Shown piece by piece: positions 1,804-27,991 of a stretch of 29,725 nucleotides of DNA (positions within the stretch are counted from its first letter, which is position 1; the number at the start of each line of letters is the position of its first letter). Both the position numbers and the translations under genes were made by a program. The DNA lies in NCBI GenBank assembly GCA_025201365.1, contig JAIXMF010000157.1:1-29725 (forward strand), written 5' to 3'. Source of the DNA: Syncephalis plumigaleata. Lineage: Eukaryota; Zoopagomycota; Zoopagomycetes; Zoopagales; Piptocephalidaceae. The notes below the pieces were generated by a model. That model had not been told where the DNA came from and did not search any database. It saw nothing but the letters and a program-made list of their open reading frames with translations.

Positions 1804-2065
1804 TGACCTTTACGGTCCTTTTCCTTTTTTTTTTTTTTCTTGTTAGAACATATTTGGCTATATGCCGTCTTTTATTATAAATGAATAAACCAGGGTTATA
1901 ATAACAAACAATTTGACAAACAGCCCAATGCCCACGGAATGGAAATGTGTCTTGCGAGTGCAGAACACGGTTGTGTAGCAGAAAACCAACTAGCATATAG
2001 TCGGTAGGTTAATAAATGTCAACATTTCTGTTAACTAGTTAGAAATGATACCTTTTTCCCTATGA
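1804..2065. other. Spacer with T-tract and first copy of a 19-bp repeat
   Basis: Contains a homopolymer T run at about 1824-1838 and the first copy of the 19-bp direct repeat (1809-1827). No gene seen. Confidence 0.5.
1809..1827 (+). repeat. 19-bp direct repeat, copy 1
   Basis: The 19-mer TTTACGGTCCTTTTCCTTT at 1809-1827 recurs exactly at 2145-2163, 336 bp away. The pair brackets the tRNA-like gene at 2066-2137. Confidence 0.8.
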
Positions 2066-2137
2066 CGGGATTGGCAGGAATCGAACCCAGGACCTATTCG
2101 TCCGAGAAATAGAGCGTAACCACTTGGCTACAACCCC
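2066..2137 (-). tRNA. tRNA-like gene, anticodon CGG (Pro), possibly degenerate
   Basis: A 72-nt cloverleaf can be drawn on the minus strand. It has a 7-bp acceptor (GGGGUUG/CAAUCCC, one G-U), an A box (TAGCCAAGTGG), a 6-bp anticodon stem closing on U-G around loop CUCGGAC (U33, anticodon CGG), and a perfect B box GGTTCGATTCC. Weak points are a D stem of only three pairs, a T stem with a C-C mismatch and two wobbles, a four-base variable loop, and no nearby run of four or more T for Pol III termination. A 9-base anticodon loop is an alternative pairing. It is either a divergent proline tRNA or a tRNA pseudogene. Confidence 0.55.
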
Positions 2138-2144
2138 ATCCTCT

Positions 2145-2163: not shown

Positions 2164-2703
2164 ACCAATTTTTCGTTGCGCGTAGATCGGCTGGCGACTC
2201 GGCGAGTTGACGCTAGCACTACTTACTAGTGTAACGCGGCAATTTGTTCTGCCTGAAATAATGTTACGATAGATTCGAGAGCTCGTGTTAAGATAAGACA
2301 CTATGATAAGTTGAGAGAATTGTAGAGTAGAGGGTATTGTTCGATGAGTAAGTGTGTGATAAGATAATGTCTTTATTTCGTATAAATGTAAGTACGCTTA
2401 TATAGCTAGAACAGCTATGAATGTAAAGAGGTACCAGCAGTAGATGTGAGTTTGCTACAGCGCATCTTTGCCGAGTTAGTCGAAGATGTACTAGTTCGCG
2501 TAGTACTTGTTGATGAGCGGGAAGCGTAGCATGGCGAATGCTACTTTATGTTGAATCGTCGGGTGGTTGTTGATTGTTTGTGTAAGGGAATAAGAGGCGA
2601 GTGGGTGATCGTTATAGATCCTGACGTAATAATGAGCAAGTGTATCATCACGTGATCAAATCTAGGTGGAGATTCGTTAAAGTGAGGAAATCCTACTGTG
2701 AAG

Positions 2704-2716
2704 TTCATATATCACA
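2704..2716 (+). promoter_or_regulatory. TATA-like element upstream of tRNA-Sec
   Basis: CATATATC lies about 22-30 bases before the tRNA-Sec 5' end. Vertebrate tRNA-Sec genes are known to use an upstream TATA box near -30, so the position is suggestive. The motif is short and could be chance. Confidence 0.35.
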
Positions 2717-2734
2717 GGAGCGGATTACACTAGT

Positions 2735-2821
2735 GCACTGATGACATTCACTGGTGTGGATAGCGGGCTTCAAACCCGTTGACGATTTGTTTCGTAGCGG
2801 TTCGATTCCGCCTTCGGTGCG
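2735..2821 (+). tRNA. Selenocysteine tRNA, tRNA-Sec(UCA)
   Basis: This 87-nt gene folds like eukaryotic/archaeal tRNA-Sec. It has a 9-bp acceptor (2735-2743 with 2812-2820) carrying one U-U mismatch at pair 8, as in the human tRNA. The two-base linker is followed by a 6-bp D stem (2746-2751/2756-2761) with a four-base UGGU loop. The anticodon stem (2763-2767/2775-2779) closes on loop CUUCAAA with anticodon UCA at 2770-2772. A variable arm of about 17 nt contains a short stem (ACGA/UCGU). The T stem is 4 bp (GCGG/CCGC) on loop UUCGAUU, and the discriminator is G2821. A perfect B box GGTTCGATTCC is present. In known systems this tRNA is charged with serine by SerRS, phosphorylated by PSTK and converted by SepSecS, then delivered to in-frame UGA by eEFSec with a SECIS element. 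No T4 terminator follows until about 2961; a hairpin follows instead. Confidence 0.93.
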
Positions 2822-2826
2822 TGGCC

Positions 2827-2845
2827 CCTCCTTAGTAGAAGGGGG
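2827..2845 (+). terminator. Hairpin directly 3' of tRNA-Sec (possible 3'-end element)
   Basis: CCTCCTT (2827-2833) pairs with AAGGGGG (2839-2845) over a five-base loop, starting five bases after the tRNA. No T run follows, so it is not a standard Pol III terminator. It may take part in 3'-end formation or be incidental. Confidence 0.3.
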
Positions 2846-3061
2846 ATGTGTAACAATGTACAAGAACAACCTTACATACAAGACGAAGAATCCGTATCAA
2901 TCTCATCTATTAATGACATGACAAACCAACATCACTTTACTAATTATAACGTGTGAACGATTTTACCATTCAATTCACGTGCCACTTGTACAAGTATCGT
3001 GTGAGTATGGGTAGATCAAAGGAATTGTCGCACGCACGCAAGATACGTCCGATGTTTTTGG

Positions 3062-8554: not shown

Positions 8555-9151
8555 ATGTTGGCTAACACTACACGTAGCATCGCTGTCATTATGACTCGCG
8601 TTGCTTCATTGGCATTGCTGCCCCTCCTCGTCATTACCATGATAAAGTCTTCCGTTGTATCGGTCGATGCGGTATTTCAGAACTACTTGATCGCCACCTT
8701 TAACAACTTTACCCTCCCCAGTGCTCAGCCGCCGATGCCTGGAGGTGAGGAGATGCCACCCATGCCAAATTGCTTGTACGCCCTGGGTCTAGGCGATCAT
8801 TATCCGATTGTCAACGATCAATGCGTGACGATACGCTGGCGTCCCGGACAAACGTGGAAGTTCGACCCCGAGATTACGGACGCTTATCAGCCGATTCGTG
8901 TTGGCAACAATTTCTGCTTCAGTATTGAAGATGCTGTCTACGGTGCCAATGCCATAGTTGTCGAGTGCTCGGGCGATTCCTCGCAAGTTCCAAACGAAGC
9001 GCAATGGCGTGTCGGCACGAACGGTTCCAACTACTGGTTCCGTAATTTGCGTACCGATCTTTGCCTACGTGGCCATGAGGACAAGGATGGGTTTAGCATT
9101 GAGGAATGCTCGGAGGATCCGTTCTTTATGTTTAAAGTGAAAACATTTTAA
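8555..9151 (+). CDS. Secreted beta-trefoil (ricin B-like) protein (198 aa)
   Basis: The N-terminus (about residues 13-38) is a strong signal peptide: MTRVASLALLPLLVITMIKS followed by a cleavable Ala-rich end. A proline-rich linker (PPMPGGEEMPPMPN) leads to about 125 residues with paired cysteines and a QWRV motif of the QxW type, typical of beta-trefoil carbohydrate-binding folds. Repeated blocks such as NNFCFSIEDAVYGANAIVVE, SNYWFRNLRTDLCLRG and the closing FSIEECSED match the pattern of trefoil lobes. It has no catalytic domain, so it would act as a stand-alone extracellular sugar-binding or structural protein. Two ATGs are possible (8555 and 8591); the second gives a tighter signal peptide. 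Single coding exon; stop TAA. Confidence 0.65.
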   Translation: MLANTTRSIAVIMTRVASLALLPLLVITMIKSSVVSVDAVFQNYLIATFNNFTLPSAQPPMPGGEEMPPMPNCLYALGLGDHYPIVNDQCVTIRWRPGQTWKFDPEITDAYQPIRVGNNFCFSIEDAVYGANAIVVECSGDSSQVPNEAQWRVGTNGSNYWFRNLRTDLCLRGHEDKDGFSIEECSEDPFFMFKVKTF

Positions 9152-23930: not shown

Positions 23931-25650
23931 CTAATCATAGATCAATGACAGAAGAAAGAAATACACTAATGCTATAGTTAGTAAACATGAATAATATGCA
24001 TAATAATGTGGATGATATGTCGCGGCAGCACTGTTTGCCTTTTCCTCCTGTCGGATTGTAGGAGATGGAGCGATAAGTGAAGTTGTCACAGTAGTGATTA
24101 GCCCGTTAATTGCCGTTACATTCGGTGATGTAATGTTATTCCTAGCAATAGTCGAGGCATTATCATGTCTTATATCGGATATAATGGTTACAGTTGAAGT
24201 ATTGCTGCTAAAGTTATACGGCAGATAGAGCAACCGATTAGGAGATGTGTAGTCATCGGGCTGACGGGTAATAGTGCCGTTAGTCGTCCATTGCAATAAT
24301 TGCTCGTAGATCGTCTCTGGATTATTGGATTTCGTTATACCTAGCAATATGGCTGCCGCACCAGCCACGTGAGGCGCCGCCATTGATGTGCCGCTAATGG
24401 TACGTGCTGTCGGCTCTGCACCAATCCACCAGGATGCAATGTCCACTCCCGGTGCGAATAACCGAATGCACGCGCCGTAATTAGAGAACTCGGCCGTTAC
24501 ATCATTTCGATCCACAGCGCCAACTGTGAAAGCAGTAGGCGTGCCAGATGGCGACCCGTCGCAGGCGTCTAGTTGCTCGTTGCCAGCGGCAACAATAACG
24601 GGAATTCCCGCTTTATAGGCTGCTTCTACGGTTCTATCGAGTGCCTCTGATCTTCCACCACTCAATGAAAGATTGATGATGGTGCGGCCGGGTCGTGCAT
24701 GCTTAGTGGCATACTCTATACCGGATAAAAGATAGGACATACGACCATCTCCGTAGGTGTTCAAGACTTTAACGCCATAAATATTGGCCTTTTTCGCAAC
24801 GCCATACGTTTTACTTGCAACGATGCCTGAAACATGCGTGCCTAATTTATAATTAGAATAAACATCACACACACATATGCCTATCAATTAACCATATCTT
24901 TATCTATCCCGCTATCTCTTTTGCCTACCATGACCGTTCGTGTCGTTGGCCGGTTCTCCCGGTATGAAACTGGCCGCCATATGTGCGCGGTTTTCAAAAT
25001 CTGGCAAATGTTCGTCAACACCAGTATCAAGTATCCAGACATCCACATCCTCGCCCGCTGAGTCAATATACGAGAATGATTCATTCAATTGCCATTTGGT
25101 ATGATGCGATATACGTGCTAGGCCCCAGTTGGCCAGTGGCGCCGTCTGCACATCCGCCATACGAATGATGGTGTCTTTCTCGATGCTGGCAATTTGCTCG
25201 GAGTCCTGCAACTTGCGCAACATAGCGGAATTAAATCGACCCGCATAACCTTTGAAACCATTTGGCTGGCTATAACGATGCAATAACGAGTTGGACGGTT
25301 CTTTTCGAGTATTCGTTTCGGCATTCGCCTGTATCATCACCTCATTGATCGTGTCATCAACTGGACAATTAGCGCGAATGAATATGCGTTAATGAACAAA
25401 TATGTACGTCATTTATGGGAACCGTATAATACCTACACTCGTCAATTCGTGCTTCATCCTTCAAATGAACAATGTAATAGTTAGGGATCGACTTGCCTAC
25501 CCATGCGGTGACTACGCCTTGCGCCTTAGCATTATCACGGCTATACTGGCGATAATGAGGACGGTTATCGGTAGAAGCCAGTCCGACTGCCATACTGAAC
25601 AGGCTTAAAACAGTCACACCTAATTGCGATATTGTAAATTGGCATATCAT
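23931..25650 (-). CDS. Subtilisin-like serine protease (S8, proteinase K type) with C-terminal anchor, 518 aa
   Basis: Exons: 25650-25437, 25360-24929 and 24841-23931; in phase, stop TAG. The order is a signal peptide (ISQLGVTVLSLFSMAVGLAS), an I9-type propeptide (YYIVHLKDE ... ASIEKDTIIRMAD) and the catalytic domain. Asp lies in WILDTGVD, His in NGHGTHVSG (formed across intron 2), the oxyanion Asn in VAAGNE and Ser in SGTSMAAPHVAG. After the protease domain comes a Ser/Thr/Asn-rich stretch with many N-x-S/T sites (about 400-480). The end is a hydrophobic segment (CLLTIALVYFFLLSLIYD). This fits a GPI-anchored or tail-anchored cell-surface protease, unlike its secreted neighbour. It is divergent to that paralogue and convergent with the RhoGEF gene. 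Confidence 0.9.
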
Positions 25651-26662: not shown

Positions 26663-26806
26663 TCACTACTCCACTTGAAATCCGTTCAATTTTTGCTACG
26701 CTTTATCGTTTACGAAACTTTCACGTCAACTTTTACCTTATCTCTCCCTCTCTCTCTTGTCTACTTCTTTTGTCTTGTATCTCACTATCCTTATCAAACA
26801 TTTATC

Positions 26807-27991
26807 ATGAAGTTTGTATCAACTCTATCACTTGTATCGGCAATTCTACTTGCTGTTACGCCAATTAACGCGGCCCTTCTCGATGGCAATACCTTTACGC
26901 CCGATAACTCGTTGTTAGCCGAAACCAATGGCACCTATATTGTCAAGCTTCGCTCGGACACCGACACCCAACAATTCCTCGACCAGACCAATAGCTTCGC
27001 CGGTGGCAATAAGACCTACAAGCACACCTATGACTCGAAGGTGTTCAAAGGTTTCGCCGCCAAGCTCACCCAAGAGGAAATCGATGGGTTAAAGCAAGAC
27101 TCCCGTGTCGAGTACATTGAAGAGGATGGCGTCATGCACGTTGCCACGGACCAGGCTAATCCACCAAGCTGGGGCTTGACCCGTATCTCCCAACGAGCCC
27201 TTAAACTCGACGCGCCCTACCAATACCCGGATAATGGCGGTGAAGGCATCGATATCTGGGTGGTCGACACCGGTATTCAGGATTCCCATAAGGACTTCGA
27301 AGGTCGCGCTAAAATGGCCAAAAGCTTCATTACCGGCGAGAAGGAGGTTGATCTAAACGGTCATGGCACTCATGTCGCCGGTACCGTCGGTTCCGCTAGC
27401 TACGGTGTCGCCAAGAAGGCCAAAATCTATGGTGTCAAGGTGCTTAACGGCTCCGGCTCCGGCTCCATCTCCGGTGTACTTGCCGGTATTCAATACGTGG
27501 CGCAAAACGCACGACCAGGCAAGTCGGTCGCCAACATGTCGCTAGGTGGCGGCAAATCCAAGGCTATCAACGACGCGGTCAATGCGGCCGTCAGTGACGG
27601 TGTCGCGTTCATTGTCGCTGCTGGCAATGAAGCGGCTGATGCGTGCACTGGCTCACCATCCGGTGCATCTAGCGCATTTGCAGTCGCCGCCAGCGATAAG
27701 GCCGACAAACAGGCCAACTTCTCCAACTACGGAACGTGCGTCAAGGTCTACGCACCGGGAGTCGATATCACATCATTGTGGAAGGGTGAAGACGGCGCGA
27801 AGAATACTATCTCCGGCACTTCAATGGCATCGCCACACGTTGCCGGTGTTGCCGCTCTTTACTTGGCCAGCGGTAAATACACGAGTGTCAACGCGCTTTA
27901 CGGCGCTCTCGTTAGCAATGCTACACCAAATGTAATCTCCAACCCTACGAAAGGCACTCCTAACAAATTGGCCTACAACACTCCCGCTTAA
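26807..27991 (+). CDS. Secreted subtilisin-like serine protease (S8, proteinase K type), intronless, 394 aa
   Basis: ATG 26807 opens a clean signal peptide (MKFVSTLSLVSAILLAVTPI, then NA). The open frame continues further upstream, but only through leader sequence. The I9 propeptide (about 43-112; TYIVKLRSDT ... VEYIEEDGVMHV) is followed by the S8 domain. Catalytic residues are Asp154 (VVDTG), His186 (NGHGTHVAG) and Ser339 (SGTSMASP), with the oxyanion Asn274 (AAGN). It ends shortly after the domain, with no anchor, so it should be an extracellular endoprotease made as a zymogen. The codons favour C/G in third position much more than neighbouring genes, which suggests high expression. AATAAATAA follows the TAA stop at about 28042. 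Confidence 0.95.
   Translation: MKFVSTLSLVSAILLAVTPINAALLDGNTFTPDNSLLAETNGTYIVKLRSDTDTQQFLDQTNSFAGGNKTYKHTYDSKVFKGFAAKLTQEEIDGLKQDSRVEYIEEDGVMHVATDQANPPSWGLTRISQRALKLDAPYQYPDNGGEGIDIWVVDTGIQDSHKDFEGRAKMAKSFITGEKEVDLNGHGTHVAGTVGSASYGVAKKAKIYGVKVLNGSGSGSISGVLAGIQYVAQNARPGKSVANMSLGGGKSKAINDAVNAAVSDGVAFIVAAGNEAADACTGSPSGASSAFAVAASDKADKQANFSNYGTCVKVYAPGVDITSLWKGEDGAKNTISGTSMASPHVAGVAALYLASGKYTSVNALYGALVSNATPNVISNPTKGTPNKLAYNTPA

Follow-up and report, generated by a model that had tools for sequence, protein, structure and literature searches.

A selenocysteine tRNA gene and associated recoding genes in a fungal genome that very probably decodes selenocysteine

The tRNA gene described here very probably belongs to a fungus that decodes selenocysteine (Sec), in which it forms one locus in two haplotypes and would serve the pathway set out below. 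It lies in the window, i.e., the whole stretch of 29,725 nucleotides analyzed, which is the whole of contig C65 in a 32.6-Mb assembly of 383 contigs. At the level of sequence, the case consists of the tRNA-Sec gene, genes for five Sec-specific proteins, two UGA codons at Sec positions, and a hairpin downstream of SPS2; charging, recoding, expression, and the working together of these parts would follow from the known eukaryotic pathway. The coordinates of the principal features are collected in Table 1.

Table 1. Positions of the tRNA-Sec gene, the inserts next to it, and Sec-related features elsewhere in the assembly. Positions without a contig name refer to the window.
Feature	Position	Strand	Evidence
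tRNA-Sec gene, anticodon UCA	body 2735-2820, discriminator G73 at 2821	+	RF01852, ARAGORN, haplotype identity, fold
500-bp insertion with TGTAA...TTACA ends and 4-bp CTAG duplication (2226-2229, 2730-2733)	2230..2729	.	haplotype comparison
SINE-like unit with tRNA-Pro(CGG)-like head, poly-A tail, and 19-bp duplication (1809-1827, 2145-2163)	1828..2144	-	haplotype comparison
SPS2 gene	C101:37785-36223	-	selD model, solved structure
SECIS-like hairpin of SPS2	about C101:36156-36098		strict scan, fold
GPX gene, exon matches	C223:388371-388842	+	PF00255
GPX4-like gene with TGA and one-base frame shift	stretch L037 1501-2145 (C223:388.4-389.0k)		conserved GPX sequence
SBP2-ankyrin fusion	stretch L050 1340-2396 (C362:203k)		solved structure, Ank_2

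The earlier note had proposed a tRNA-Sec gene at 2735-2821 from its structural features, and a covariance-model search bore this out. Using cmscan, the Rfam family RF01852 matched over its full length (model positions 1-91) at 74.7 bits, well over its gathering score of 47 bits (E 7.9e-14 in the 29,725-base window), as the sole Rfam match at the gathering threshold in the window, and ARAGORN called a tRNA-SeC with anticodon TCA over the same 87 positions. Eukaryotic tRNA-Sec is characterized by 9/4 stems, a 6-bp D stem, a UCA anticodon, a long variable arm, and G73. The hallmarks listed in the note are all visible in the cmscan alignment: a 9-bp acceptor stem (GCACUGAUG/CUUCGGUGC) with a single U.U mismatch, which the note reads as common to the human gene, a 6-bp D stem (AUUCAC/GUGGAU) with a loop of four bases (UGGU), a 6-bp anticodon stem carrying UCA in the loop CUUCAAA, a long variable arm, and a 4-bp T stem (GCGG/CCGC), then G73. 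Free folding of the RNA led to the same arms at -32.8 kcal/mol (z -2.8), a value equalled by 2 of 200 shuffles. Among the 14 prokaryote genomes used as controls, 5 also had RF01852 matches over the cut-off, so that assignment to the eukaryotic type depends on the lengths of the stems, for which 9/4 (acceptor/T) is the eukaryotic rule. Genome-wide, six RF01852 matches were listed, two of them at 74.7 bits, one per haplotype. The other four, at 37.7-41.1 bits and thus under the cut-off, were rejected as tRNA-Sec candidates; ARAGORN assigned all four to tRNA-Ser, which indicates that the model separates Sec from Ser in this genome.

Comparison with 30 kb of the 3.05-Mb contig C1 placed the gene in its allelic setting. 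Window positions 2729-26284, the furthest point compared, align to C1 in four blocks at 97.9-99.0% identity, and the part upstream aligns in three blocks (89.8, 96.4, and 94.4%) interrupted by inserts. From this block alignment we conclude that C65 is a haplotig and that tRNA-Sec is one locus in two haplotypes. Two inserts upstream of the gene are present in the window haplotype and missing from C1. The nearer one, which ends 5 bp before tRNA-Sec, looks like a solo LTR. Its last 81 bp recur at 100% identity on another stretch (L056), where they precede a tRNA-Ser(CGA) gene by 23 bp, and no match to this LTR end was seen in the haplotig stretch L057. The insert suggests a retroelement that targets sites just upstream of Pol III genes, where yeast Ty3 also inserts, and its position in one haplotype means that the two tRNA-Sec alleles may differ in expression. 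The second insert is a SINE-like unit with two further copies on L056 (6283-6601 and 6832-7148; 97.8 and 99.4% identical), and the units with this tRNA-Pro(CGG)-like head are a young family; one of the copies on L056 directly adjoins the 81-bp LTR end, and the two have a duplication of 17-19 bp in common. The tRNA-Pro that ARAGORN called at 2064-2138 is the head of the SINE-like unit, yielded no Rfam report at the gathering score, and was not accepted as an ordinary tRNA gene.

While the gene shares its full-length match and stem lengths with RF01852, it differs in what follows it: no Pol III terminator (T4) occurs within 139 nt downstream (window 2822-2960) in either haplotype. The absence of a four-T run just after the gene is unusual for a Pol III gene. 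Both the missing near terminator and the LTR-like insert 5 bp upstream would fit a relic, in which tRNA-Sec and its machinery persist while Sec decoding has been lost or is decaying. Against this stands the conservation of the gene itself, with 87 of 87 letters identical between window and C1, whereas 12 differences, all downstream of tRNA-Sec, fall in the remainder of the 571-nt alignment that starts at 2730. Elsewhere, the window contains two subtilase genes close together (23931-24887, minus strand; 26675-27991, plus strand), the latter closest to proteinase-K-like enzymes among solved structures, as well as an F-box protein, a C2H2 protein, and, at 8555-9151, a protein that looks secreted. 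This last protein has a match to ricin-B lectin under the Pfam cut-off, and a Zap1 finger match is likewise under the cut-off.

All five Sec-specific protein genes sought, PSTK, SepSecS, eEFSec, SBP2, and SPS2, were located in the genome, in agreement with the pathway that the earlier note had expected to accompany the tRNA. For SepSecS, PF05889 gave exon matches on C35 and on the haplotig C110, four on each (best E 2.1e-25), some of which run over stops, as expected across introns. Since PF05889 is unspecific, passing its cut-off in 3 of 14 prokaryote controls including B. subtilis, the exon pieces were joined and searched against solved structures; the best match reached 5.1e-85, and all seven structures matched were O-phosphoseryl-tRNA(Sec) selenium transferases. 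The joined exon pieces of eEFSec on C318 contain the eukaryote-specific Pfam domains of this factor, PF21208 (3.1e-20) and PF21131 (2.7e-15), both above their cut-offs, and match the Sec-specific elongation factor 5izk at 6e-84. PSTK was found on C223 and haplotig C58 with the wider family PF08433, at a locus separate from a stronger KTI12 match on C2. Its best NCBIfam match is the eukaryotic PSTK model TIGR03575 (E 1.3e-19), at a score of 70.6 that lies far under the family cut-off of 382; when the genome was searched with TIGR03575 itself, no match appeared at E 0.001.

These genes also bear on whether the tRNA might read UGA as an ordinary suppressor, or as a UGA-reassigned tRNA, without selenium. 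Such a role would account for the UCA anticodon. It is opposed by the Sec-specific geometry in the RF01852 alignment and by the presence of PSTK, SepSecS, eEFSec, SPS2, and SBP2, a set for which we know of no other purpose, and we regard it as extremely improbable.

The preferred reading, a Sec-decoding fungus, calls for genes in which UGA is recoded, and SPS2 is the first candidate. Its eight exons join to 1128 nt; of the seven introns, which are 54-72 nt long, six have GT-AG borders and one has GC-AG. The spliced protein scored 233.7 bits with the selD model (cut-off 125) and matched a solved selenide, water dikinase at 9.3e-102. Apart from the terminal TAG, the sole in-frame stop is the TGA of codon 26. 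This active-site codon (LKG-TGA-GCK) aligns with the Thr that occupies the x of LKG-x-GCK in selenide, water dikinase 1 of known structure. A 59-nt hairpin begins 66 nt past the stop. It opens with AUGA, which is followed in the fold by a stem of 12 bp interrupted by a single bulged base; CAAAUUUG stays unpaired on the 5' arm, the apical stem has 6 bp, and UGA stands on the returning arm. Compared with the SECIS core and apical features given in the available text of PMC11227280, this element appears SECIS-like, with a predicted type-II plan. It is the only strict-scan candidate in 600 nt, at -15.1 kcal/mol, a value reached by 0 of 98 background stretches of 600 nt (best -12.7; a candidate in 10 of 98) drawn from both strands of one 30-kb stretch of C1, which are not 3' regions. 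The Rfam model SECIS_1 had no match genome-wide at E up to 10. When applied to 2 kb around the SPS2 hairpin, it missed the hairpin at the same limit, so the genome-wide blank is not evidence of absence. The retention of this hairpin in a gene with no internal stop except the Sec codon further argues against a relic.

The second candidate is a GPX gene, the only locus found genome-wide with PF00255. The first of its three exon matches in gene order carries an internal TGA, and the gene reads VSMEQYRGQVVLVVNVASK-TGA-GLTK (NVASK-TGA-GLT), so that the catalytic codon is TGA. When this codon is read as Cys, PF00255 matches the upstream part at 3e-47. Among natural proteins of solved structure, the nearest to it is GPX4 (phospholipid hydroperoxide glutathione peroxidase; 7l8m, 157.2 bits, vs 105.8 bits for HYR1, 3cmi). 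The gene here differs from GPX4 in lacking a clear canonical SECIS and in a one-base frame shift after YLKKKQK, which in this assembly is either an assembly error or a real lesion. A strict scan of 900 nt after GPX gave three overlapping candidates, all from a single GUGA start, 569 nt past the stop, best -10.4 kcal/mol; a loose scan restricted to the nearer 560 nt gave no candidate. Although this weak GUGA-type candidate was bettered by only 1 of 66 background 900-nt stretches from the same part of C1, it was provisionally set aside because it lies in GATGATG-rich sequence under a 146-aa open frame on the opposite strand. The TGA, the frame shift, and the weak SECIS candidate are together what a decaying gene might look like. 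Yet GPX sequence is conserved on either side of the shift, and tRNA-Sec and the five protein genes are all still recognizable, and we consider it very unlikely that Sec decoding has become a relic in this organism.

Under the favored Sec-decoding reading, SPS2 and GPX, each with TGA at a known Sec position, are the UGA-containing selenoprotein genes that the earlier note had predicted, and standard gene prediction would end both too early, as it had also claimed. As to its expectation of SECIS elements after such genes, SPS2 has the type-II-like hairpin, unmatched in the background yet missed by SECIS_1, and GPX has the one weak candidate. No genome match to PF10262 (Rdx; SelW/T/H-like) was found at E up to 1, from which the selenoproteome may be small, the families sought being SelD, GPX, and Rdx.

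SBP2 departs from solved SBP2 in domain architecture. It is one of 13 L7Ae matches in the genome, six of which were translated, and the SBP2 locus, on C362 and haplotig C335, was then compared with solved structures. The match to solved SBP2 (7zjw) reached 5.4e-23, with the alignment starting upstream of the L7Ae domain, and the next structure scored 0.0095. The part conserved with SBP2 in PDB 7zjw/7zjx starts at YCxQ and takes in the L7Ae RNA-binding domain; the protein here differs in extending, in frame, past this domain to ankyrin repeats (Ank_2 9.5e-41). No stop interrupts this frame in either haplotype, and the two are 99.0% identical over 3108 nt. To our knowledge, mammalian SBP2 has no ankyrin repeats. 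A literature search for SECISBP2 with ankyrin, covering titles and the beginnings of abstracts, showed nothing on point among the matches listed, and the in-frame fusion is possibly new. Mariotti et al. reportedly observed in 2019 that most fungal selenoproteins lack a consensus SECIS, and are said to have proposed an altered Sec insertion for fungi. We tentatively raise the possibility, which we hold with limited confidence, that Sec decoding in this lineage relies on a modified reader, SBP2 with C-terminal ankyrin repeats, for a small selenoproteome in which SPS2 uses a canonical type-II SECIS and the GPX4-like peroxidase is recoded via a weak or different signal. If true, the lineage would represent a naturally occurring intermediate stage between the use of canonical SECIS elements and altered fungal Sec insertion.

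The fungal identity of the genome is marked by a LYS2-type alpha-aminoadipate reductase, a hallmark of fungi. This gene, on C135 and haplotig C241, matched TIGR03443 at 1234.3 bits against a cut-off of 1030.1 that 0 of 14 prokaryote controls reached. Given the reported absence of Sec in Dikarya, we take the fungus to lie outside that group. The earlier note had considered that the contig might come from a non-fungal contaminant. We judge this unlikely because the Sec loci are distributed over six large contigs, namely C1 (tRNA-Sec, 3.05 Mb), C35 (SepSecS, 0.74 Mb), C318 (eEFSec, 1.55 Mb), C223 (PSTK and GPX, 1.95 Mb), C101 (SPS2, 0.40 Mb), and C362 (SBP2, 0.98 Mb), with like G+C (0.38-0.42 in the stretches read), and because four of them (tRNA-Sec, SepSecS, PSTK, and SBP2) also have haplotig copies. 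A co-sequenced non-fungal eukaryote, such as a host, prey, or symbiont, would be compatible with the position of LYS2 on a contig other than those of the Sec genes. The spread and uniform composition of the Sec contigs, the pattern of main contig plus haplotig common to LYS2 and four Sec loci, and the presence on C1, some 2 kb away from tRNA-Sec, of a gene with a fungalysin/thermolysin propeptide all speak against such a source, which we hold to be very unlikely. The Sec trait was most likely inherited vertically and retained where most fungi lost it.

The data thus support the Sec-decoding interpretation of the earlier note as far as sequence can. In the proposed pathway, SerRS would charge tRNA-Sec with serine, PSTK would phosphorylate the tRNA-bound serine, and SepSecS would convert the phosphorylated serine to selenocysteine with selenophosphate from SPS2. 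The Sec-tRNA would then be brought by eEFSec to UGA codons of mRNAs with an SBP2-bound 3' SECIS hairpin. SPS2 would itself depend on Sec decoding through its UGA active site and the type-II SECIS-like hairpin in its 3' region, and the GPX4-like peroxidase, as the only GPX found, would be the second target.

Sec in a few early-branching fungal lineages had been acknowledged in the earlier note, and the available text of PMC10778597 and PMC11378755 dates the report of nine such species to 2019, which lowers the novelty of the present case. As far as the accessible parts of these sources go, the nine belong to Chytridiomycota, Zoopagomycota, and Mucoromycota (PMC11378755), six of them are named (PMC7988114), seven are Harpellales (PMC10386755), and SelenoH is the selenoprotein common to Harpellales (PMC12611240). 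The fungus studied here resembles the Sec-decoding early-branching fungi of Mariotti et al. 2019, as they are summarized in such sources, in its tRNA-Sec, Sec machinery, selenoproteins, and probable non-Dikarya placement. It differs from the SelenoH-sharing Harpellales (PMC12611240) in that the Rdx search was blank and UGA is found in SPS2 and GPX. In literature listings on fungal selenoproteins, the Sec trait is not named in any further fungus. Its existence in fungi has been contested in PMC7988114 and PMC8559351, which, in the text available, deny fungal selenocysteine on the ground that annotated protein sets contain no U.

Sec decoding here may add to the few species so far reported in a kingdom long thought to lack it. 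A contiguous genome with two haplotypes that contains tRNA-Sec, the five protein genes, two UGA codons, and a SECIS-like hairpin provides independent evidence against the view that fungi have no Sec and supports the 2019 claim; truncation of genes such as SPS2 and GPX by ordinary gene calls is a likely reason why the trait was missed. A fungus that has SPS2 and a GPX4-like protein as selenoproteins would allow experiments on how fungi insert Sec, on variants of the SECIS, and on the fusion of SBP2 to ankyrin repeats.
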